In this document: one piece after another, positions 26,462-57,344 of the stretch
How positions within the stretch are numbered: position 1 is the stretch's first letter
Layout: each line of letters starts with the position of its first letter
Assembly (NCBI GenBank): GCA_028284905.1
Contig: JANQQU010000063.1
Coordinates: 1 to 64,000, forward strand
DNA: 64,000 bases
Source: Calditrichia bacterium
GTDB taxonomy: Bacteria; Calditrichota; Calditrichia; RBG-13-44-9; J075
Reading direction: 5' to 3'
The notes under the pieces: model-generated
The model's input: only the letters and a program-made list of their open reading frames with translations
Databases searched by the model: none
What the model was told of the DNA's origin: nothing
Translations under genes and position numbers: made by a program

Positions 26462-27280
26462 CTACATCATTTCGCTTTCAATTCGTTCAATCGCCTGCAT
26501 CACTGTTTCCCAGTCCGTTTCCGTCTGGATGTTTAAAGTTTCATCGTTAACTTGCTGCTCTCGAAATTTATGCTCATTCTGCAAAGCGTCTGTGTCTATT
26601 TGAATATCCGGGTTATTCCAATCCTTGGCAACTGCGGCGACCCGCTCTCCCATTGCTGATATAAAACGGTCGTGGAAACTTTTTACTTCCTGTAAATATT
26701 GCTCCCGGGAAAGGGTAAATCGCCATTTTTCGGTAGACCAGGCGGGGATTTCATGAATCTTTTTCTCGGAGTTATTCCATTCCAGGGTAATTGTGCGATT
26801 GTCCGACCAAATCTGGATGTTCGCTGCGGGGGAAAGATAGCCGGTATCCAGGTAGCGCTCCTCTGTCCATATCGTCGCATTATAGAATGTATCCCAAACC
26901 GCTTCATCGTCTGTTTCTTTATCGACGTAGCGGGATAACCATTCGTCACAGACGTTATGCCAGGGATTTTCCGGGTCCATTTCCTGCTTTATGTATTTCA
27001 ACAAAAAATCCGGCACTGGCTCCAGCGTGTACGGTAAAATGGAAAGAATGTCTTCATATAAGCGGGCAACATAATAATCGACATAGGGGGTAATTTCACT
27101 TTCATCTGCTTTTTCTGCCAGGTATTGCACGCAGGCATCGGAATAGCGAAAGAGCTCATGGGCACCGGCCTTGATGTGGTAGGTCCCTGCAGATAGGCCA
27201 AACCAACTGAGCGATTGCAGCGGCGGCTCTCCCCAGGGCTCAATTTCTTCAATGGAATCCAGGGTAAAATTGAATAACAT
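26462..27280 (-). CDS. DUF5984-like protein
   Basis: A 272-residue cytoplasmic acidic protein. The start (LFNFTLDSIEEIEPWGE, then LSWFGLSAGTYHIKAG and HELFRYSD) fits the DUF5984 family, whose function is unknown. The middle has a helical segment (YYVARLYEDILSILPYTLEP) and a beta-rich part (IQIWSDNRTITLEWNN). The C-terminus has an additional helical tail. It is monocistronic and convergent with msrP; the 27281-27426 gap upstream shows nothing obvious. Confidence 0.6.
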   Translation of the reverse strand: MLFNFTLDSIEEIEPWGEPPLQSLSWFGLSAGTYHIKAGAHELFRYSDACVQYLAEKADESEITPYVDYYVARLYEDILSILPYTLEPVPDFLLKYIKQEMDPENPWHNVCDEWLSRYVDKETDDEAVWDTFYNATIWTEERYLDTGYLSPAANIQIWSDNRTITLEWNNSEKKIHEIPAWSTEKWRFTLSREQYLQEVKSFHDRFISAMGERVAAVAKDWNNPDIQIDTDALQNEHKFREQQVNDETLNIQTETDWETVMQAIERIESEMM

Positions 27281-27426: not shown

Positions 27427-27537
27427 CTCAAGCAATGCCGGAAAACCGGCATGAGACAGATACAGGGAGGTCTGGAGGAGAATCGGTAATCCCGGGAGTG
27501 GGATTATTTGGGTGGCTATTTAATATACGGCAACCCG
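27427..27537 (+). ncRNA. Structured leader upstream of the YfiR-kinase cassette
   Basis: Three fold-backs in a row: TGCCGG-AAAA-CCGGCA (27436-27451) with an outer CTCA/TGAG pair; TAATCCC and GGGATTA (27487-27506) around a six-base loop; and a looser GGGT...ACCC arch up to about 27537. The last precedes the ribosome-binding site by a few bases. It could be a regulatory leader of the cassette. It lacks the conserved GEMM (c-di-GMP-I) core, so no known riboswitch class is claimed. Confidence 0.4.
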
Positions 27538-27561
27538 GTTGTTTAATGCGAGGAGGGAGGT

Positions 27562-28152
27562 TTGCAGACGAATATCATGAGTCTCAGAAAGTGGTCTTTA
27601 ATTCTATGTCTCTGCAGCATCTTTGTGGTTCAGGAGGGGCTGGCCCGGGATGTATCATCCACTGCGTTGAGTGCAGAAATTCTGCTGAAGCTGGTTGCAC
27701 TGAACGATAGTCTGGATTTAGCCGGCGTCGATACGGTACGCATTGCTGTCCTCTACGATCCCTCCGATAATACCTCTTTTCGGCAGGCTGTCATTTACGA
27801 TTCAATATTGTCTCAATTTCCTTTACCACCTTTTAGTGGCCGGCCGCTGACAATTTTACGACAATCAAACCGAAATCTCGCTGCCCTGTCCCGGGGAAAG
27901 ATTCATGCTATAATTGTTATTCCGGGAAGGGATAATCGCCTGAGTGGCCTGCGGGAAGTATGCAACAAAGAACATATTCTTTCCATGACAACAGATTCGA
28001 CTTTGGTTTCTCAAGGAATTTCCGCCGGGGTAGAAATTAATGCCGAAGGGAAACCGGAGATCTGGTTTAACATAAAATCTTTGAAAGACGAATCGGCTAA
28101 ATACAGTATGGATGTACTAAGATTGGCGAAACATTTAATCTTTGGCAACTAG
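27562..28152 (+). CDS. YfiR-like (DUF4154) periplasmic protein
   Basis: A 196-residue exported protein: an N-terminal signal helix (LILCLCSIFVVQEGLA) then an alpha/beta YfiR/DUF4154-type domain. The typical signs are the strand-helix core (IHAIIVIPG, EHILSMTTDSTLVSQGISAGVEI) and the C-terminal GKPEIWFNIKSLKDESAKYS region leading to the final helix MDVLRLAKHLI. In Pseudomonas YfiR is a periplasmic inhibitor of the diguanylate cyclase YfiN. The start is a TTG five bases after AGGAGG; an ATG at 27577 is the alternative but badly spaced. Nine bases separate it from the first hybrid kinase. Confidence 0.7.
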   Translation: MQTNIMSLRKWSLILCLCSIFVVQEGLARDVSSTALSAEILLKLVALNDSLDLAGVDTVRIAVLYDPSDNTSFRQAVIYDSILSQFPLPPFSGRPLTILRQSNRNLAALSRGKIHAIIVIPGRDNRLSGLREVCNKEHILSMTTDSTLVSQGISAGVEINAEGKPEIWFNIKSLKDESAKYSMDVLRLAKHLIFGN

Positions 28153-28161
28153 GGCGTGCAG

Positions 28162-31059
28162 ATGAAAAAAGTTGTTAATCGCACATCAATTTCGCTAAAG
28201 ATCTGGACGTTGGCAATTCTGGTATTTACCCTGGTTGCTGCTTTCCAGTACTACGGTTTTTTTAGTACGAAAAACCAGTACCGGGATGAGCTGCGCCATA
28301 AATCCCAGGATGCGGTTCGCCAGGTTTCCCGTAATTTGCAGGCAAGTATTTGGCTCCATCAAATTGATCAGGCGATCGCCATGCTCGATGAATTGGAGAA
28401 GACGCCTGACGTTTCCTTCCTAACTTTGCAAGATTCCAGCCTGAAAGAGTTATATGGATTTCGTTCCCAGGCCTATGATTCCCTGATAAATGTATTCATC
28501 AACGAAACAGAAACGATTCGGGATACCGATGAATTTTTTCTGGTGAAGGAACCGGTGGCCTTTAACGATGTCGTGCTCGGTCATTTACTGGTTGGTTTTA
28601 ACCATCGCTGGCTGAATGAACGCATTGCCGCCCGGGAACGGGAGCTGATGATCGTAACCGCGGCATTCGGCGCTTTACTGATGCTGTTGACGCTTATTTT
28701 TTCCTACTATATCGCCAAGCCTCAGAAGGTGGCTGCCCGAACTTTGCAGGAATACCAGCCAACTGCAGAATGGCACGGGTTGCCGCTGCTGCCGCGGGGA
28801 AATGGAGAAACTGCCCGGCTGATTAAAGCCTTTAACTATGTCGCGGATGAGATGAATTCGCAGTTGCGGGAAAACAACCGTCATCAGCAATTTCTGGAAT
28901 CGTTTTTCACACTAAGCCCAATTGCTATCCTGATCACCGATACTGCGGGGAAGATACTACGGGTAAATAAATCTGCTGTGGAGTTGTTCGAAACCGGGGA
29001 AAGCGAACTGCTCCGAAAATCCCTTGAGGAGCTGCTCGGCGCCAGTGATTACTACTCTCTGAAGCAACACTTTGACAATTCCAATCGCAGTCTGCTTGGT
29101 TATGTAACCGTGGTAATGGCCCCGGATCAAACCCGTAAGGTGCTGGAAATGAATATTGCCATGGTGGAGAATAATCTCGAAGACCGCCTGGAGTATATGA
29201 TTACGATTATCGACGTTACGGAGAAGATCGATACCCAATACGAAATTCTGGAAAGCCAGAAAAACCTCAGCAAATCTCACTTTGATCTGCAGGAAAAAAC
29301 CGACGCTCTGGAAGCGGCCAGTCAGAAGAATCAGGAATATGCGGAAAAACTAAAGAAGTTATTGCAGGTCTATTATCAGACGATCGATTGCAATACCGTG
29401 CCGGAAATCCTCGATTTACTGATTACCAACGGCTCCGAGTTGATAAACGCCAGGTATTGTGCGGTATTTCTCTGGGATTATGATAAATCCTTCCTGAAGC
29501 CAGTCCGGGCGCTTCCGGAAGCGCATCTGGAAAAGCTTGACGCGATTGATGGGGAAGCAGGCATCGTCTGGCAAACCTATGAAAGCAACCAGGCCTATTT
29601 TTTGAACAAAATGCAAAATGGCGATTTGCAGGAACTGGGATTTGCGGAAGATGATGAATTTTGCCTGGTCTCCGTGCCGATCAGTGATCAGGATTTTCGC
29701 TATGGCGTTGTGGTGTATTTGCAGGATACTGAGCAATTGTTTACCAATGAAGACGTTCATTTGATTACGACGCTGACCCATCAGGCAGCAATCATGATCG
29801 AGAAAATCAACCTGTTGCAGGCGTACCAGGGGAATTATCGCCATCCCTCCCAAACGGATATTTTACTGCCGCGCCCTCCGGCCCAGTATTTGCAAAATCA
29901 GAAAATGGAAAGCATGGGGACAATTATTGGCGGTGTTGCCCATGAATTTAATAATATTTTGGGAATTATTCAGCCAAACCTGGATCTCTTAAAACGGGAA
30001 GCCGGTGGAAATGCAGCAATTGAACGTCGTATTGGCAGCATCCGCGAAGCAGTGGACCGTGCTGCCGGCTTAACGCGCCGCCTGATGCTTTTTTCCCGGA
30101 ACCAGCAGTTGAACCGCGCCCCGGTTTCCCTGAATAAATTGGTGGAACAATTGGCTGAAGCTTTTCGGAAACCGCTGGGGAAATCCTACGAATTGAAAAC
30201 CGAGTTAGATGGTAATTTGCCGGACGTATATATCGACCGAAATCGCATTACCCAGGTATTGATGAACCTGGTGGTAAATGCCCGCGATGCCATGCCGGAA
30301 GGCGGTGAAATTACCATTCGAACTTCAATTCAAAAATTTGTGCCGAACGAAACACCAACGAACGGAAAAAAAGAGTATGTTCAGTTGACAGTTGCCGATA
30401 ATGGCCCGGGCATCGCCGATGAGCAGCTGTTTCGAATATTCGATCCATTCTTTACCACCCGGGAAGTTGGTAAAGGTGTCGGATTAGGGCTTTCAGAGGT
30501 ATATGGTATAATCAAAAGTCACGGTGGCAGTATACGGGTAGATACGGCATTGCAACAGGGTACTACATTCCACATATATTTAGCGCCTTTTCAGGAAGCG
30601 GATATAAACAGGAAAACGGGCGGCGCTATTGTCCCACCTACCGGCAAAAAAGACTCCGGCCGAATTTTAGTAGTAGACGACGAAGCGATGCAGCGCGCAT
30701 CCCTGAAATCCTCCCTGGAATATCTCGGCTATGTAGTCGTCGTCGCAGAAGGCGGAAAAGATGCGCTTGCTATCCTAAAAGATGATAACGACTTTGATAT
30801 TGCCATTGTAGATTATAATATGCCTGAGATGGACGGGGTAGAAACGATTCGAAATTTGCGAAAAATGGATGACCGTGTTAATGTTATATTAACCAGCGGC
30901 ACTGCCCAGCGCGAGTTATTACGGCAACAGCATTCCGATATTCAGGGATTTCTGTCCAAACCATATCATTTGGAAACTCTGGAAGCGCTGTTGAATAAAA
31001 TAACCAATGGCGCGGGCAGCAGGGAAGAACAACAAGTGAGTAATACAGATAAACAATGA
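28162..31059 (+). CDS. Hybrid sensor histidine kinase 1 (CHASE8-like sensor)
   Basis: A 965-residue membrane kinase. Two transmembrane helices (about 13-33 and 162-186) enclose a periplasmic domain whose pattern (SRNLQASIWLHQIDQAIAML and VLGHLLVGFNHRWLN) recalls CHASE8, the YfiR-responsive sensor of YfiN. After a HAMP-like linker come PAS (250-355), a coiled coil, GAF (about 410-550), HisKA with His594 in GGVAHEFNNILG, HATPase (FDPFFTTRE, GKGVGLGLS) and a receiver (VVDDE, Asp884 in IVDYNMPEMDG, Lys in LSKPY). It has no output domain. A GTG at 28156 is an alternative start. Its stop overlaps the next gene by four bases (ATGA). Confidence 0.88.
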   Translation: MKKVVNRTSISLKIWTLAILVFTLVAAFQYYGFFSTKNQYRDELRHKSQDAVRQVSRNLQASIWLHQIDQAIAMLDELEKTPDVSFLTLQDSSLKELYGFRSQAYDSLINVFINETETIRDTDEFFLVKEPVAFNDVVLGHLLVGFNHRWLNERIAARERELMIVTAAFGALLMLLTLIFSYYIAKPQKVAARTLQEYQPTAEWHGLPLLPRGNGETARLIKAFNYVADEMNSQLRENNRHQQFLESFFTLSPIAILITDTAGKILRVNKSAVELFETGESELLRKSLEELLGASDYYSLKQHFDNSNRSLLGYVTVVMAPDQTRKVLEMNIAMVENNLEDRLEYMITIIDVTEKIDTQYEILESQKNLSKSHFDLQEKTDALEAASQKNQEYAEKLKKLLQVYYQTIDCNTVPEILDLLITNGSELINARYCAVFLWDYDKSFLKPVRALPEAHLEKLDAIDGEAGIVWQTYESNQAYFLNKMQNGDLQELGFAEDDEFCLVSVPISDQDFRYGVVVYLQDTEQLFTNEDVHLITTLTHQAAIMIEKINLLQAYQGNYRHPSQTDILLPRPPAQYLQNQKMESMGTIIGGVAHEFNNILGIIQPNLDLLKREAGGNAAIERRIGSIREAVDRAAGLTRRLMLFSRNQQLNRAPVSLNKLVEQLAEAFRKPLGKSYELKTELDGNLPDVYIDRNRITQVLMNLVVNARDAMPEGGEITIRTSIQKFVPNETPTNGKKEYVQLTVADNGPGIADEQLFRIFDPFFTTREVGKGVGLGLSEVYGIIKSHGGSIRVDTALQQGTTFHIYLAPFQEADINRKTGGAIVPPTGKKDSGRILVVDDEAMQRASLKSSLEYLGYVVVVAEGGKDALAILKDDNDFDIAIVDYNMPEMDGVETIRNLRKMDDRVNVILTSGTAQRELLRQQHSDIQGFLSKPYHLETLEALLNKITNGAGSREEQQVSNTDKQ

Positions 31060-33872
31060 AGCGACTAATTGATACATTTTCTTTACGGGGGCGAATTTGG
31101 TTAATGGCAATAGGCATTTGGATGATTGTTGCCATCATCTCTTTAGTGGATTTCTTTGCCCATAAAAATACCCTGGAAAATTTATTTTGGCATAAAGCCA
31201 ATACAGTGATACAAACAGTTGCCGTTAACCTGGAAAGCGGCGAGTGGCAGGACGGCTTTTTGCAACAGGCACTGGCCGCCGGGGAAAATGCGCCGGACGT
31301 AGCGTTTTTATACGTGGAGGATTCCACCGCAGCGGCTGTCTATAAATTGCATACGGAAAAATTTGCAGGGCAGCTGCAAACCTTCCTGCAAAATAATGAT
31401 ATGCAACAACGCAGTGAGAACTTGCTGCTCATTAAACATCCGCTGTTTTTTAACGAAGTGCCCGGCGGGACGGTCATCGCAGGGTTTAACACCCAGTGGA
31501 TTAACGCCCGGCAGACTGAGCGCATCAACCTTACCTTAATGATCGTCGGTGGATTTTCTCTCTTCCTCTTTATTTTTACCTTTCTAATGGCCAGATATGT
31601 TACCGAACCGATCAGCTGGGCAACCAAGAAAATTCATCGTTATCGCGAGGGTAAAGGCAAATCCTATGTTCGCCTGGCGGATGGCGGCAATGGCGATATC
31701 TTTGAATTAGGCCGCGCTTTTAACCATCTGGCGGATAATATCGATGAGCAGATGGAAAGCGCTACGCAATATCAAAACTACCTGGAAGCGTTCTTCTCCT
31801 TAAGCCCGACACCCTTGCTGATTACTGACACTGTCGGGAATATCGAAAAGGCAAATCATAACGCCTCAATGCTTTTTGAAATTGAACCGGAACGTTTGCT
31901 GAATAGCAATCTGCAGGCACTAATCGGCCCGGGCAATTTTAACGTTATTAAGAATCAGATCAATGAATCCGGCTCGGATATTAAAGGATATGTCGGGGTG
32001 CTGCCTTCCAGCAGCGGCGATCAAAAGATTGTTGAGATCAACCTGTCCCTGTTGTATAACAGCCAGCGAGTGCTGCAGAATTATATCATTTCGATCGTCA
32101 ACATCACCGACAATATTCAAACTCAACATGAAATTCTTGCCAGCCAAATAAATCGCGCCAAACTGGACCGGGAAATACAGGAGACCTTCCTGAAAACCCG
32201 TGAGGAAAATAAACGCCTCAATACCATTATTCAGTTAAACCAGGAAACAATCGAGCAGGATTCCGCCGGTAAGATTCTCGACATGCTGGTTTCCCACGGC
32301 AAGGATTTAATCGATGCCCGGGAATGCATTGTGTTTATTTGGGAGAAAAACCAGCGGGCATTAATTCCGGCAAAAACTTCCCCATCGACAAAGCTGAAAC
32401 AGCTGAAAACGATCCAGAGCAGCGATGGACTGATTTGGCGGACATTCCGGGAAAACCAACCGTTTATCTGGAAGAACTCTGCACTGGAAGCGCTGGATTA
32501 TGAGGAGCTCGGTCTGGACAAGACCGGAAAATATGATTTGTATACTGCACCGATTGGCGTGGAAGAATTCCAGTATGGGGTTATCGTCTACATCCAGCAT
32601 GCACCGAAGGCTTTTTCCGTCGATGATCTACAAATTATTGCCCGCTTCGCCCGTCAGGCGGGCATGGCGCTGAACAAGTTCTTCCTCTCCCAAAAAATGA
32701 AGGATCGCAACGATTCGTTGCGCCGCCTGAACGGAGAGCTGCATAAAACCCGGCAGAAAGCGATTAAGCTGGAAAAAATGGCCAATCTTGGCCGCCTGAT
32801 CGGTGGCGTCGCCCATGATTTCAATAACATCATTGGCATCATCAAACCAAATGTCGATTTGCTGAAAATGGGCACGGCAAACTATCCGGACTTGCAAAAA
32901 CGCATTCTGATAATCAAGGATGCTGTCGATAACGCTACCGGCCTTATCCGTCAGCTGTTTATGGCTTCCCGGAATCAGCAGGAAGAGCGAATATCCGTCC
33001 AGCCGAGTGAATTTATTGAGCAGGTGCTGGAAATGTTCCGCCGCCTGATGGGCAAGAAGATTACCGTAGAAACCGAACTGGGAGAAAATATTCCCCGGAT
33101 TATCGCCGATCCGGTACAGCTGCAGCAGGTCTTGATGAATTTGGCGATCAACGCTCGCGATGCTATCGCCAAAAGCGGTACGATTACCTTTATCACGTCC
33201 CTGGAAAACTACGCCCCGGCCGATAGCGAGGCACCGCCGAAACCTTATGTGCGCATCAGCGTGAAGGATACCGGCGGGGGAATTTCCCGGCAAAATATGC
33301 GCCGCATCTTCGAACCGTTCTTTACCACTAAGGAAACCGGGAAAGGTACTGGCCTGGGGCTTTCCATCGTTATGGATATCGTAAAAAGTCACAATGGCTT
33401 CATCGATATAGATACCAAGCTGGGACGAGGCACTACATTCCATATTTATATTCCCCCGGCACCAATGCCGAAAAAGAAATCGAAACCGGGTGCTACCGTG
33501 CTGGTCGTGGATGATGAAGCGCTTTTCCGGGAATCTCTGCAGGACTCTCTGAAGTCTCTGGGCTACAATGTTTACCAGGCTGCGGACGGAGAAGCGGCAC
33601 TGCGCCGGGTAAAAGAGAAAAAGAAGATCGACCTGGCAATTGTAGACTTAACAATGCCGCAATTAAATGGGATTGCCACGATTCGCTCGATTCAGGAAAT
33701 AGCCCCGGATATGCGTATTCTCCTTTCCAGTGGATATAATGACAAGGAGAACCTGATACACGAACATGTAAATATCCATGGATTTCTGCCAAAACCATAT
33801 AACCTGGAAGAGCTGGAAGATATTGTCAAACAAGCGCTGAGTGCGAAACAATCTGAGCCTTCTTCTTCATAG
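31056..33872 (+). CDS. Hybrid sensor histidine kinase 2, paralogue of kinase 1
   Basis: A 938-residue kinase colinear with the preceding one: transmembrane helices (about 12-35 and 158-180), CHASE8-like periplasmic domain (VNLESGEWQDGFLQQAL, GGTVIAGFNTQWIN), HAMP, PAS with a SPTPLLITDTVGNI start, coiled coil and GAF. Then follow HisKA with His587 in GGVAHDFNNIIG, HATPase (FEPFFTTKETGKGTGLGLS) and a C-terminal receiver (VVDDE, Asp in IVDLTMPQLNG, Lys in LPKPYNL). PAS, kinase and receiver motifs match kinase 1 nearly step for step, so the pair arose by tandem duplication. The ATG lies inside the ATGA overlap. No output domain or separate regulator follows. Confidence 0.88.
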   Translation: MKRLIDTFSLRGRIWLMAIGIWMIVAIISLVDFFAHKNTLENLFWHKANTVIQTVAVNLESGEWQDGFLQQALAAGENAPDVAFLYVEDSTAAAVYKLHTEKFAGQLQTFLQNNDMQQRSENLLLIKHPLFFNEVPGGTVIAGFNTQWINARQTERINLTLMIVGGFSLFLFIFTFLMARYVTEPISWATKKIHRYREGKGKSYVRLADGGNGDIFELGRAFNHLADNIDEQMESATQYQNYLEAFFSLSPTPLLITDTVGNIEKANHNASMLFEIEPERLLNSNLQALIGPGNFNVIKNQINESGSDIKGYVGVLPSSSGDQKIVEINLSLLYNSQRVLQNYIISIVNITDNIQTQHEILASQINRAKLDREIQETFLKTREENKRLNTIIQLNQETIEQDSAGKILDMLVSHGKDLIDARECIVFIWEKNQRALIPAKTSPSTKLKQLKTIQSSDGLIWRTFRENQPFIWKNSALEALDYEELGLDKTGKYDLYTAPIGVEEFQYGVIVYIQHAPKAFSVDDLQIIARFARQAGMALNKFFLSQKMKDRNDSLRRLNGELHKTRQKAIKLEKMANLGRLIGGVAHDFNNIIGIIKPNVDLLKMGTANYPDLQKRILIIKDAVDNATGLIRQLFMASRNQQEERISVQPSEFIEQVLEMFRRLMGKKITVETELGENIPRIIADPVQLQQVLMNLAINARDAIAKSGTITFITSLENYAPADSEAPPKPYVRISVKDTGGGISRQNMRRIFEPFFTTKETGKGTGLGLSIVMDIVKSHNGFIDIDTKLGRGTTFHIYIPPAPMPKKKSKPGATVLVVDDEALFRESLQDSLKSLGYNVYQAADGEAALRRVKEKKKIDLAIVDLTMPQLNGIATIRSIQEIAPDMRILLSSGYNDKENLIHEHVNIHGFLPKPYNLEELEDIVKQALSAKQSEPSSS

Positions 33873-34533: not shown

Positions 34534-35226
34534 ATGAAGATGGACGATAAACTTTATGCAGTAATAATTGGGGATGTTGCCGGTTCCAAACGCCTGAGCA
34601 GCCGGAATCGTTACCAGACGCAATTATTTATGAAATCTGCCATTGTGCAGATCAACGAAGAATTTGCCGATCATATTGAAGCGCCTTTTACGATTACTAA
34701 GGGTGACGAATTTCAGGGATTGATTACCAATCTGGAAGTTGCCTTTAAGGTTGTAATGGCCCTGGAAAAATTGACCTTCCCGGTCAAGCTGCGCTTTGGC
34801 ATCGGTGTCGGTAACATCTACCGGATGGGCGGAATCCTACCGATCGAAATGGATGGACCTGCTTTCCACCGGGCCAACTACGCGCTCAACGATGCGAAAA
34901 AGAAAAAGCAGGACTATTTCCTGCACAGCAATGAAGAAACCCTCGATATTCTCGCCAACACTGTTTTCCATTTAATGACCGCAATTAAACTTCGCTGGAA
35001 CGAGCGTCACTATCGTTTGTTTTGGCGCTATAAAGATCTGGGGACGTATCGTCAGGTCGCGGAACTGGAGAATGTTACCCCACAGGCAATTTGTGAGGCG
35101 CTAAAAAATACCCGTGCCTTATATGTGAAGTCTGCAGAGGAAAACTTGCTGGAATATTTTCGCAAATTCCCTGTATGCACGGCTCATTTTTCCGAAGAAG
35201 CGCTGGAAGAAAACGAATTGAGCTGA
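34534..35226 (+). CDS. SatD-family protein
   Basis: A 230-residue cytoplasmic protein of the SatD family. The opening YAVIIGDVAGSKRL, the ITKGDEFQGLI segment and RFGIGVGNI have the look of a cyclase-like ferredoxin fold, followed by a helical C-terminal part that ends in a helix-turn-helix-like segment (TYRQVAELENVTPQAICEAL). SatD was named for secretion-and-acid-tolerance loci in streptococci; its chemistry is not known. The weak GGGTATTCC upstream leaves the start at 34534 or the ATG six bases later. The last 43 bases overlap the 3' end of the CPBP gene tail to tail. Confidence 0.75.
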   Translation: MKMDDKLYAVIIGDVAGSKRLSSRNRYQTQLFMKSAIVQINEEFADHIEAPFTITKGDEFQGLITNLEVAFKVVMALEKLTFPVKLRFGIGVGNIYRMGGILPIEMDGPAFHRANYALNDAKKKKQDYFLHSNEETLDILANTVFHLMTAIKLRWNERHYRLFWRYKDLGTYRQVAELENVTPQAICEALKNTRALYVKSAEENLLEYFRKFPVCTAHFSEEALEENELS

Positions 35227-54260: not shown

Positions 54261-54297
54261 AGTGGCAGTAATATGTCGCCAGACGATTACTGCCACT
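54261..54297. terminator. Hairpin after the BI-1 gene
   Basis: AGTGGCAGTAAT and ATTACTGCCACT form a perfect 12-base stem around a 13-base loop. There is no T-run, so it may stop or attenuate transcription into the kinase gene that begins 55 bases later. Confidence 0.55.
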
Positions 54298-54351
54298 GTC
54301 AATTATCGCCCTGCCCGGGCACTACTCTACTGCCGCATAACGGCCTGTCAA

Positions 54352-55869
54352 ATGAGAAAAATTCAAACCAAATTTATACTTATTTTTATCGGGATAGTGG
54401 TTATACCGCTGTTTCCCCTGGCCTGGTTGGTGAATGGTTTAGTGCTGGAGGGCTATCAACTCGGGGTAAATCCGCAGGTAGAAACCGTGCTGGAGAATAG
54501 CGTTGGTTTTTCCCAGGAAATTTACCAGACCCGAAAGGTTGAATTGGCAAATCAACTGGAACATATGATCGACCGCCAGCTGAATGAATCCCCGAACAGA
54601 GAAACAATTTCTTCCATCGAATTTCCCGCTGAAGCAGATGGCTGGCAATGGATGGCTTACCAGGTGCGTGAGCACAGCGGCACTTTAATCTTTGAGAAAT
54701 ATCAGCAGGGCGTTTCTGTAGAAAATACCTCCCTGGGAAACGCCAGTTTCATCGATCGCCTGCGCGAAGCTGATAGTGATAAGCAGATTATCGCCAACCG
54801 GGGGGAGAATTTATTTATCGCTCTGGAGCGCCGGGCAGCTGCTGCGGATACGCTATACTTTTCCCTGGCCGGAAAGATGACCGACGAATTTTTAGCAAAC
54901 AGTGATCATGTCGTCGATGTCCTTCAACTATATCGTACCATGACCCTCTCCCCGGAATCTATTTTTGCCAGCTTTCAAAAAACTTTCCTCTTCATTGCAC
55001 TGGTTATTTTGGTAATCGCAGTCGTAGTGGCTATCTGGCTATCCCGGCGAATTACCCGGCCATTGGCAGCGCTGGTGACTGGTACGGAAGAGCTGGGGCG
55101 AGGGAATCTGGATTATCGTATTACCCAAACAACCAATGATGAAATCGGGGAATTGGTGCAGCATTTTAATCGGATGGGGAGCGAGCTGAAAGAATCCCAG
55201 GAAAGAGCGATCTACCTGGAAAAAATGGCGGCCTGGCAGGAAATCGCCCGCAGATTGGCCCATGAAATTAAGAATCCATTAACGCCAATTCAGTTAACTA
55301 TTCAGGAGATGGTCGATCAGTATGAGGGGGAAGACCAGGATTATGCCCAGTTATTGCAGGAGTGCCATGGGATCATTCGGGAAGAGATCGATAATTTACG
55401 CCGGCTGGTCCGAGAGTTCTCCGACTTTGGGCGCTTGCCGGAATTACAACGCAGTCCCGGCGACATCAATGCATTAATCCGCGATGTTGAAGGATTATAT
55501 ACCCATCGGAAAATTGACTCGCAATTGGCGAATGGATTACCGGAAATAAATTTTGATGAAGACCGTATCCGTCGCGTCCTGATAAACCTGATTGAAAATG
55601 CCGCCCAGGCAGACCCGAAAGAGCAACCGATTTGCATAACTTCGCAGATGAAAAACGAAGGTGTCCTCATTACTGTCGAAGATAAAGGTACTGGCGTTTC
55701 AGCGGAAATTCAGGAGAAAATCTTCGAGCCATATTTTACCACAAAAAATAACGGTATCGGTCTCGGCCTGGCGATCACTCGAAAAATGGTGGAAGAGCAT
55801 GGGGGAAATATTTCTCTGGCCTCAACACCGGGGGAAGGAAGTATTTTCTCTATCTGGTTACCGGCGTAG
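54352..55869 (+). CDS. NtrY-like membrane sensor histidine kinase
   Basis: A 505-residue kinase. One transmembrane helix near the N-terminus (KFILIFIGIVVIPLFPLAWLV) and a second at about residues 203-223 (FLFIALVILVIAVVVAIWL) enclose a periplasmic sensor domain. HAMP (SRRITRPLAALVTGTEELG) leads to HisKA with His in ARRLAHEIKNPLTPIQ and HATPase (NLIENAAQA, YFTTKNNGIGLGLAIT). These are NtrY-type signatures. The ATG at 54352 is chosen where the membrane helix begins; the upstream reading enters the hairpin. Its NtrC-type partner lies 122 bases downstream, separated by a palindromic repeat. Confidence 0.88.
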   Translation: MRKIQTKFILIFIGIVVIPLFPLAWLVNGLVLEGYQLGVNPQVETVLENSVGFSQEIYQTRKVELANQLEHMIDRQLNESPNRETISSIEFPAEADGWQWMAYQVREHSGTLIFEKYQQGVSVENTSLGNASFIDRLREADSDKQIIANRGENLFIALERRAAAADTLYFSLAGKMTDEFLANSDHVVDVLQLYRTMTLSPESIFASFQKTFLFIALVILVIAVVVAIWLSRRITRPLAALVTGTEELGRGNLDYRITQTTNDEIGELVQHFNRMGSELKESQERAIYLEKMAAWQEIARRLAHEIKNPLTPIQLTIQEMVDQYEGEDQDYAQLLQECHGIIREEIDNLRRLVREFSDFGRLPELQRSPGDINALIRDVEGLYTHRKIDSQLANGLPEINFDEDRIRRVLINLIENAAQADPKEQPICITSQMKNEGVLITVEDKGTGVSAEIQEKIFEPYFTTKNNGIGLGLAITRKMVEEHGGNISLASTPGEGSIFSIWLPA

Positions 55870-55873
55870 AAGA

Positions 55874-55972
55874 GAATGCGGAATGGCGAATGCGGAATTC
55901 GGAATGGTGAATTGGGAACTCAATCTTTTGCATTTATAATTCCGCATTCCGAGTTCGACATTCCGCATTCCA
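55874..55972. repeat. Palindromic repeat family B, copy 2
   Basis: GAATGCGGAATGGCGAATGCG and a GGAATTCGGAATGG block face ATTCCGCATTCCGAG and ATTCCGCATTCCAAA in an imperfect hairpin about 100 bases long. It fills nearly all of the gap between kinase and regulator genes of the NtrY/NtrX-type pair. Copy 1 is at 4664-4735. Confidence 0.8.
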
Positions 55973-55991
55973 AAACTAAAAGGCAATCATT

Positions 55992-57344
55992 ATGAAAAAC
56001 CTATCCGTCCATATCGTTGATGACGAGAAAAATATCCGCCGCTCATTTGAGTTAATTCTGCGGACAAAATCCTTTCGGGTAAAATCATTCCCCGATGCCC
56101 CTGCATTTCTGGAGGCTTGTGAGGAAGATGCACCGGATGTCGTCTTCATGGATGTGATGATGCCGGAAATGGATGGCATCGAAGCGCTTAAAAGGCTGAA
56201 GGAGTTATCACCGGATACTGAAGTGGTGATGATTTCCGGGCACGCCACGCTCAGCAATGCCGTGGAAGCGACGCGTGCCGGCGCATACGACTTTCTCGAG
56301 AAGCCGCTGCAGAAAGAAAAAATCCTGCTGACGCTGAAGCATTTGCAGGAACGACGGTCACTGGCCAGTCAATATAATCGCCTGCAGCAATCGGTCTCCG
56401 AACAATATCGCATTATTGGCGAATCTCCGGAAATCCAGGGGGTAATGAAAAAGATTGAAAAAGTCGCACCCACCGATAGCAAAGTCCTGATTACCGGTGA
56501 GAGCGGGGTTGGGAAAGAGCTGGTTGCCTATGCGATTCATCAAAATAGCCCGCGCGCTCGGGAAGCCTTTATAAAAATGAACTGCGCTGCTATCCCGGAA
56601 GATTTAATCGAAAGCGAACTCTTTGGAAACGAAAAAGGCGCTTTTACCGGCGCCTCCGAACGGCGGGACGGAAAATTTGCCCAGGCTCATCTCGGCACGC
56701 TATTTCTGGATGAAGTTGGCGACATGAGTCTGCGAGTGCAAACTAAAGTGCTGCGGGTGTTGCAGGATGGCGAGTTTCAGCGCGTCGGAGGAAAAGAGAT
56801 TCTTAAAGCGGATGTGCGCATTATCGCCGCAACGAATCGCAATCTGGAAGAGATGACTGCCAATGGCGAGTTTCGTGAAGACCTCTATTTTCGCCTAAAC
56901 GTACTACCGATTGAAATGCCCCCTTTGCGGGCGCGCGCCGGCGATGTCACCCTATTGACAAAACATTTCCTCGAAAAATATTGTTCGAAAAATAATCGAC
57001 GTACCCCAGTGGTGGATAAAGCAGTGTTTAATATTCTCGAAAGCTATCACTGGCCGGGAAATATCCGGGAATTACAAAACCTGGTAGAGCGGCTGATTAT
57101 TCTCTCTGATGAAAACCAGATAGGGCTCGACGATCTTCCCGGCCACCTACGCCAAACAAACTTTCCGGTCAACGAGATAACGCCGGGCAGCAAAACCCTT
57201 AATGAAGTGCGGGAAGCAGTCGAGAAAGCCTATATCGAGCAATGTCTTGCTCACGCCGGAGGGAATGTCTCTCAAGCCGCCCGCCTGCTGGGAATGGAGC
57301 GGACAAATCTACACAAAAAGATGAAATCCCTGGGGCTTCGTTGA
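55992..57344 (+). CDS. NtrC-family sigma54-dependent response regulator
   Basis: A 450-residue regulator. Receiver: DDE near residue 11, Asp54 in VFMDVMMPEMDG, Lys in FLEKPLQ. AAA+ domain (about 140-375): Walker A GESGVGKE, GAFTGASERRDG (the sigma54-contact GAFTGA loop intact), Walker B LFLDEVGDM and the RARAGDV arginine-finger region. The C-terminal Fis-type helix-turn-helix is NVSQAARLLGMERTNLHKKM. It activates sigma54 promoters; it is the partner of the NtrY-like kinase. A terminator-like hairpin overlaps its end. Confidence 0.93.
   Translation: MKNLSVHIVDDEKNIRRSFELILRTKSFRVKSFPDAPAFLEACEEDAPDVVFMDVMMPEMDGIEALKRLKELSPDTEVVMISGHATLSNAVEATRAGAYDFLEKPLQKEKILLTLKHLQERRSLASQYNRLQQSVSEQYRIIGESPEIQGVMKKIEKVAPTDSKVLITGESGVGKELVAYAIHQNSPRAREAFIKMNCAAIPEDLIESELFGNEKGAFTGASERRDGKFAQAHLGTLFLDEVGDMSLRVQTKVLRVLQDGEFQRVGGKEILKADVRIIAATNRNLEEMTANGEFREDLYFRLNVLPIEMPPLRARAGDVTLLTKHFLEKYCSKNNRRTPVVDKAVFNILESYHWPGNIRELQNLVERLIILSDENQIGLDDLPGHLRQTNFPVNEITPGSKTLNEVREAVEKAYIEQCLAHAGGNVSQAARLLGMERTNLHKKMKSLGLR

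Follow-up and report, generated by a model that had tools for sequence, protein, structure and literature searches.

A divergent YfiR-like gene precedes two tandem hybrid histidine kinases with CHASE8-type sensor domains in a Calditrichota bacterium

Results

A YfiR-like gene followed by two hybrid kinases

The window, i.e., the whole stretch of 64,000 nucleotides analyzed here (G000:C11:1-64000), comes from the genome of a Calditrichota bacterium (8.55 Mb, 93 contigs), and our comparisons were made with a sample of 40 Calditrichota genomes. It carries three colinear genes, which together with all the domains described below are on the forward strand. The first, R (27577..28152), encodes a predicted secreted YfiR/DUF4154-like protein of 191 aa and starts with an ATG, a TTG at 27562 being the alternative. 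It is followed by K1 (28162..31059), a hybrid histidine kinase of 965 aa when started at its ATG, or of 967 aa when started at the alternative GTG at 28156, and by K2 (31056..33872), a second hybrid histidine kinase of 938 aa that is 35% identical to K1 and was characterized with Pfam and a phylogenetic tree. The gap between R and K1 is 9 bases if K1 starts at the ATG, and K1 and K2 overlap by ATGA. These coordinates agree with the tight operon described in an earlier note on this DNA. Downstream of K2, also on the forward strand, lies a gene of the SatD family (34534..35226; Pfam PF16264, E 1.5e-26).

Upstream of R, and divergent from it, there is a DUF5984 gene (26462-27280, E 1.3e-68) in which we saw no relation to the signalling unit. 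Elsewhere in the window (54262-57344), a histidine kinase of 535 aa is followed by a regulator of 450 aa with an N-terminal receiver, which by appearance form an NtrC-type pair.

The operon had also been described as preceded by a structured leader. The 154-base stretch upstream of R does fold at -45.2 kcal/mol, with a z of -2.65, or of -2.05 by the shuffles of a separate script, but this is not distinctive: by the z of that script, 23 of 256 equal-sized segments of the window (around 9%) are as low. The leader has no match in Rfam, occurs once in the genome, and does not resemble the upstream DNA in the relatives. With so many equally extreme segments and no relatives of the leader, we did not count it as a feature, and we rejected a riboswitch or conserved RNA at this position.

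Architecture and sensor domains of the kinases

Pfam and a scan for transmembrane (TM) segments give K1 and K2 the same layout, i.e., a TM helix, a periplasmic domain, a second TM helix, and then PAS, GAF, HisKA, HATPase_c, and Response_reg domains. Each kinase has two TM segments with around 130 residues between them. The receivers (30664..30993 in K1 and 33498..33827 in K2; Response_reg, Pfam) are C-terminal and Pfam identifies no domain after either of them, as had been read from the sequence. The H-boxes are intact (GGVAHEFNN in K1 and GGVAHDFNN in K2), and the alignment with relatives shows that the N and G boxes are kept. A recent duplication at the origin of the tandem was ruled out by the 35% identity and the unresolved tree. 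A search of plasmids returned matches to the kinase core, none of which spanned 80% of K1.

The periplasmic domain of K1 (28246..28647, around residues 29-162) is located between the two TM helices and was characterized by TM scan, profile, hhalign, and structural model. Its match to the CHASE8 family of Pfam (PF17152) is below the cut-off (E 0.032, 14.9 bits for a cut-off of 27), and the equivalent domain of K2 (31158..31539, around residues 35-161) has no CHASE8 match in Pfam on its own. A profile made from 12 CHASE8 receptors matches K1 at E 7.3e-14 and K2 at E 3.2e-6, a signal that may in part be carried by the sequence from genome G025, since it is close to the group of the K kinases; this sequence is just below the Pfam cut-off and the other 11 are above it. 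In hhalign, the set of K periplasmic domains matches the CHASE8 set with a probability of 97.7% (E 1.6e-12, 133 columns) and a score of 75, against at most 20 in shuffled sets, and has no match to DUF4154 in the cross-comparison. The matches in the PDB of a model of the N-terminus of K1 (two input sequences, pLDDT 72.4) include periplasmic domains of the WalK, CitA, and LapD types, as would be expected of a PAS/PDC-like fold. Of the two sensor domains, that of K2 has diverged further (E 3e-6), with indels where CHASE8 has its first conserved helix region. The HMM comparison thus bears out the CHASE8-type assignment proposed earlier. The other sensor families considered, dCache and 4HB, were set aside, because no Pfam match to them is listed for the periplasmic domains of K1 or K2.

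Output of the phosphorelay

As both kinases end in a receiver, it had been proposed that an unlinked partner must receive the phosphate. This is plausible, but "must" goes too far, since terminal receivers can also take part in feedback or act as sinks for phosphate. The orphan Hpt that could act as such a partner exists in the genome: we found one solitary Hpt (118 aa, L101:7724-8080, on contig C51), as well as a single large CheA-like protein that contains three Hpt domains. However, there are at least 150 receiver-domain matches in the same genome. With so many receivers in competition, the solitary Hpt, if it is a partner at all, would be a shared hub that may serve many hybrid kinases. 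The gene of the solitary Hpt lies just upstream of one reading as ribosomal protein L21.

The two receivers might also work solely as internal feedback elements or phosphate sinks, with the kinases using a small partner that is not an Hpt, or with K2 antagonizing K1. Having one solitary Hpt for so many receiver matches is in line with this possibility, and the two kinases, as old paralogues (35% identity, unresolved tree), could have divided their roles. Yet, both receivers retain in the alignment the acidic pocket, the phospho-acceptor Asp, the Ser/Thr, and the Lys that phosphotransfer expects, and we find this alternative rather doubtful, if the best placed of those considered here.

Assignment of R to the YfiR family

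On its own, R matches DUF4154 (PF13689) at E 0.017 and 15.6 bits, below the Pfam cut-off of 24.9. This is a detection limit. The search for relatives found R-like genes in nine genomes, including that of the window, and in the wider R subfamily 11 of the 13 members match DUF4154 at E ≤0.1, the best at 1e-8. A scan of public genome contigs with R yielded two relatives. A profile of the DUF4154 members of the phylum that are above the Pfam cut-off recovers R at E 9.1e-6, compared with 0.31 for the best shuffled sequence. In hhalign, the R subfamily matches the canonical DUF4154 proteins of the phylum with a probability of 95.8% (E 7e-9) and an intermediate group with one of 98.7% (E 3e-16). The scores between R and DUF4154 range from 43 to 62, and the trimmed version scores 43, against 13 for the reversed one and at most 23 in 100 column-shuffled controls. 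The profile of the canonical proteins in turn matches YfiR of P. aeruginosa in the PDB at E 5e-8. Hence, R is linked to YfiR stepwise, from R to the DUF4154 members of the phylum and from these to YfiR in the PDB.

A sequence search of the PDB with the R-subfamily profile gave nothing relevant, but the fold search did reach YfiR. The best PDB matches (Foldseek) of the AlphaFold model of R (three input sequences, pLDDT 74.8, pTM 0.71) are the YfiR crystal structures 4yn9, 4yn7, and 4zhu, with TM scores of 0.77-0.80 on target, an rmsd of 2.9, and around 14% identity over the structural alignment. The TM scan identified in the N-terminus of R a hydrophobic segment (residues 8-26) after a basic start, and there is no lipobox at this N-terminus. 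From the profiles and the predicted fold, we take R to be a divergent YfiR-family protein, which upholds the identity first suggested for it. Overall, we have very little doubt on the identity of the parts of this operon, i.e., of R and of the domains of K1 and K2.

Gene order among relatives

A conserved co-occurrence of the YfiR-like gene with the kinases, on which the earlier interpretation depended, is indeed found among the other Calditrichota. In five other genomes of the order (G025, G032, G033 on contig C16, G034, and G039), the gene immediately after R is an orthologous kinase. These adjacencies span three families (f1, f2, and f3), and R and kinase, where complete, are 3-32 bases apart. 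In G032, a partial R at the end of a contig is followed by two tandem kinases, Ka and Kb; the periplasmic segment of Kb has no match to the CHASE8 profiles. In G034, the order of genes is HK397-R-K-SatD, where HK397 stands for another kinase, 397 aa long, and it is R-K1-K2-SatD in the window. The shared gene order and the identity of the SatD proteins (64-72%) indicate a single ancestral locus. In the genome of the window, the orthologue of HK397 is elsewhere, on contig C43.

A SatD gene comes after the kinase in G034, G027, G026, G033 (on contig C374), and G029 as well. It is a conserved neighbor that marks the orthologous locus and is not clearly part of the signalling unit. A gene of around 187 aa ("MRDVRGLI...") is present between the kinase and SatD in G026, G027, G029, and G033; the 660 bases between K2 and SatD in the window are without it.

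The pairing of R and kinase is not obligatory. The kinase is without an adjacent R in eight loci (G026, G027, G030, G031, G035, G036, G037, and the C374 locus of G033), and R is beside HK397 with no K downstream in G030 and G031, where the hybrid kinase is elsewhere. The majority of the orthologous kinases of the order are thus without an adjacent R, yet retain the periplasmic domain.

At the scale of the phylum, 21 of the 30 YfiR-like genes with readable downstream DNA directly precede a gene with this CHASE8-type periplasmic domain, a count that is partly circular because many of these genes were used to build the profile. Independently of our own profiles, there are 11 loci in the phylum where genes for DUF4154 and CHASE8 are adjacent and both above the Pfam cut-offs. 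Many of the DUF4154-CHASE8 kinase pairs of Calditrichota (L077, L080, L081, L082, L083, L085, and similar ones) follow a gene for a large exported protein, which from its sequence we read as a putative TonB-dependent receptor. In a literature search for YfiR and TonB-dependent, neither term occurred in any title or abstract.

Discussion

Proposed mechanism

By analogy with the Yfi system, we favor, with some reserve, the reading that R binds the CHASE8 domain of K1, of K2, or of both, and thereby gates autophosphorylation. The fold of R best matches YfiR and the kinases carry CHASE8, the domain that YfiR controls in YfiN, and the R-kinase gene order is recurrent among relatives. This reading is weakened by the kinases without an adjacent R, by the R genes without a kinase, by the low identity of R to YfiR, and by the diverged sensor of K2. 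If it holds, R, predicted to be exported and YfiR-like in fold, would most likely dock on the CHASE8 (PAS-like) domain of K1, and probably on that of K2 too. Docked R would hold the kinase in one state, presumably by repression rather than activation. A cue from the periplasm (redox, envelope, or ligand state) could then alter or remove R, and the membrane helices would transmit the change to the PAS, GAF, and HisKA domains. As a result, autophosphorylation would shift, and the phosphate would go to the receiver of the kinase itself, after which its acceptor would be a separate Hpt or response regulator, or else water. We infer here the physical binding of R to the kinases, the sign of the control, and the downstream partner. 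A more speculative and rather improbable extension is that one R controls two anciently diverged hybrid kinases whose CHASE8 domains have different affinities for it. The two kinases would then form a switch that is branched or opposing and may be heterodimeric. The R-kinase-kinase arrangement itself is kept in at least two genera (those of the window and of G032).

Some sensor kinases are activated by a loaded binding protein, as in XylFII-LytS and LuxP-LuxQ. One might consider R as a ligand-sensing lobe akin to a small solute-binding protein, which would activate the kinases once it carries its ligand instead of being a sequestered repressor. The Foldseek list for R does include periplasmic binding proteins, among which XylFII-LytSN (5xsj), and YfiR itself has been likened to a binding-protein domain, 3LFT (PMC4655355). 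The TonB-receptor-like gene before many DUF4154-kinase pairs of the phylum would fit the sensing of a ligand linked to its uptake, and a YfiB gene was not seen in the R-K1-K2 operon. On the other hand, the YfiR structures outscore any full binding protein, and R is a single lobe, hence without a cleft between two lobes. We consider a ligand-sensing R unlikely. That K1 and K2 act without R, which would be a co-transcribed passenger or regulate something else, is the least probable alternative: the R-less orthologous kinases that keep their periplasmic domain and the R genes beside HK397 in G030 and G031 are compatible with it, but it is at odds with the closely spaced R-kinase pairs of three families and with a DUF4154-CHASE8 adjacency that is far above chance across the phylum.

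Relation to known systems

The gating of kinases by R would have close parallels. YfiR controls YfiN via the periplasmic domain of the latter, for which there is genetic and biochemical evidence, whereas the histidine kinase outputs were described in silico (this and the following statements on the work refer to excerpts of Malone et al. 2012, PMC3375315). Distant Yfi systems have sensor histidine kinases, Hpt domains, or GGDEF-EAL pairs in the place of the GGDEF domain of YfiN, and in Thauera sp. MZ1T two homologues of YfiR go with a single YfiN whose output is a hybrid kinase. A YfiR-YfiN[PAS] core was proposed there as a widespread modular system, with MCP outputs added in the Discussion. 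Since YfiR was thus already described with sensor- and hybrid-kinase versions of YfiN, the claim of the earlier note that such a coupling is an undescribed system does not hold. In gene order and domains, R-K1-K2 is what Malone et al. 2012 delimited, a YfiR homologue syntenic with a CHASE8-type receptor, here with a histidine kinase output.

The locus shares with the YfiR-YfiN[PAS/CHASE8] kinase modules of that work a putatively secreted YfiR-like protein and a YfiN-type periplasmic domain with a histidine or hybrid kinase as output. It differs in that R is more diverged and the locus is in Calditrichota, and, with respect to Thauera (two YfiR genes, one kinase), in having one R before two tandem kinases. 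In the part of the literature looked at, we found no description of this form with one regulator and two tandem kinases. It is a modest variation, present in two genera among those compared (window and G032). With YfiBNR of P. aeruginosa it has in common the YfiR fold of R and the CHASE8-type sensor domain, but the window kinases are without GGDEF and end in HisKA-HATPase-receiver, so that the output is a phosphorelay, and the operon is without a gene for YfiB (an OmpA/Pal-type lipoprotein), as R-K1-K2 is followed by SatD. In the Calditrichota operons with a TonB-receptor-like gene, a CHASE8 kinase, often a hybrid one, likewise comes right after a DUF4154 gene. In contrast to these operons (L077, L080-L083, L085, and others), the window has no upstream receptor gene, its R belongs to a different and more diverged subfamily, and its PAS-GAF hybrid kinase is in duplicate.

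The locus supports the view of YfiR plus a CHASE8/PAS receptor as an old modular periplasmic switch for c-di-GMP enzymes, kinases, and chemoreceptors. It adds to the proposal of Malone et al. 2012 the phylum Calditrichota, not covered in those excerpts, within which the YfiR-CHASE8 input occurs with both kinase and chemoreceptor outputs. The version with tandem kinases is a natural case of one regulator for two receptors and involves no new principle. The chemoreceptor outputs are those of two loci where a YfiR-like gene directly precedes a chemoreceptor (MCP) gene (L091:3083-6331 and L093:3222-5648). These pairs have in common with R-K1-K2 a YfiR-like gene directly before a receptor with two TM segments, which in L091 matches CHASE8 by Pfam (E 4e-4), but their output is an MCP beside Che genes instead of a kinase. 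The neighbors in L091 and L093 read as CheA/CheW and CheW/CheY/CheB genes.
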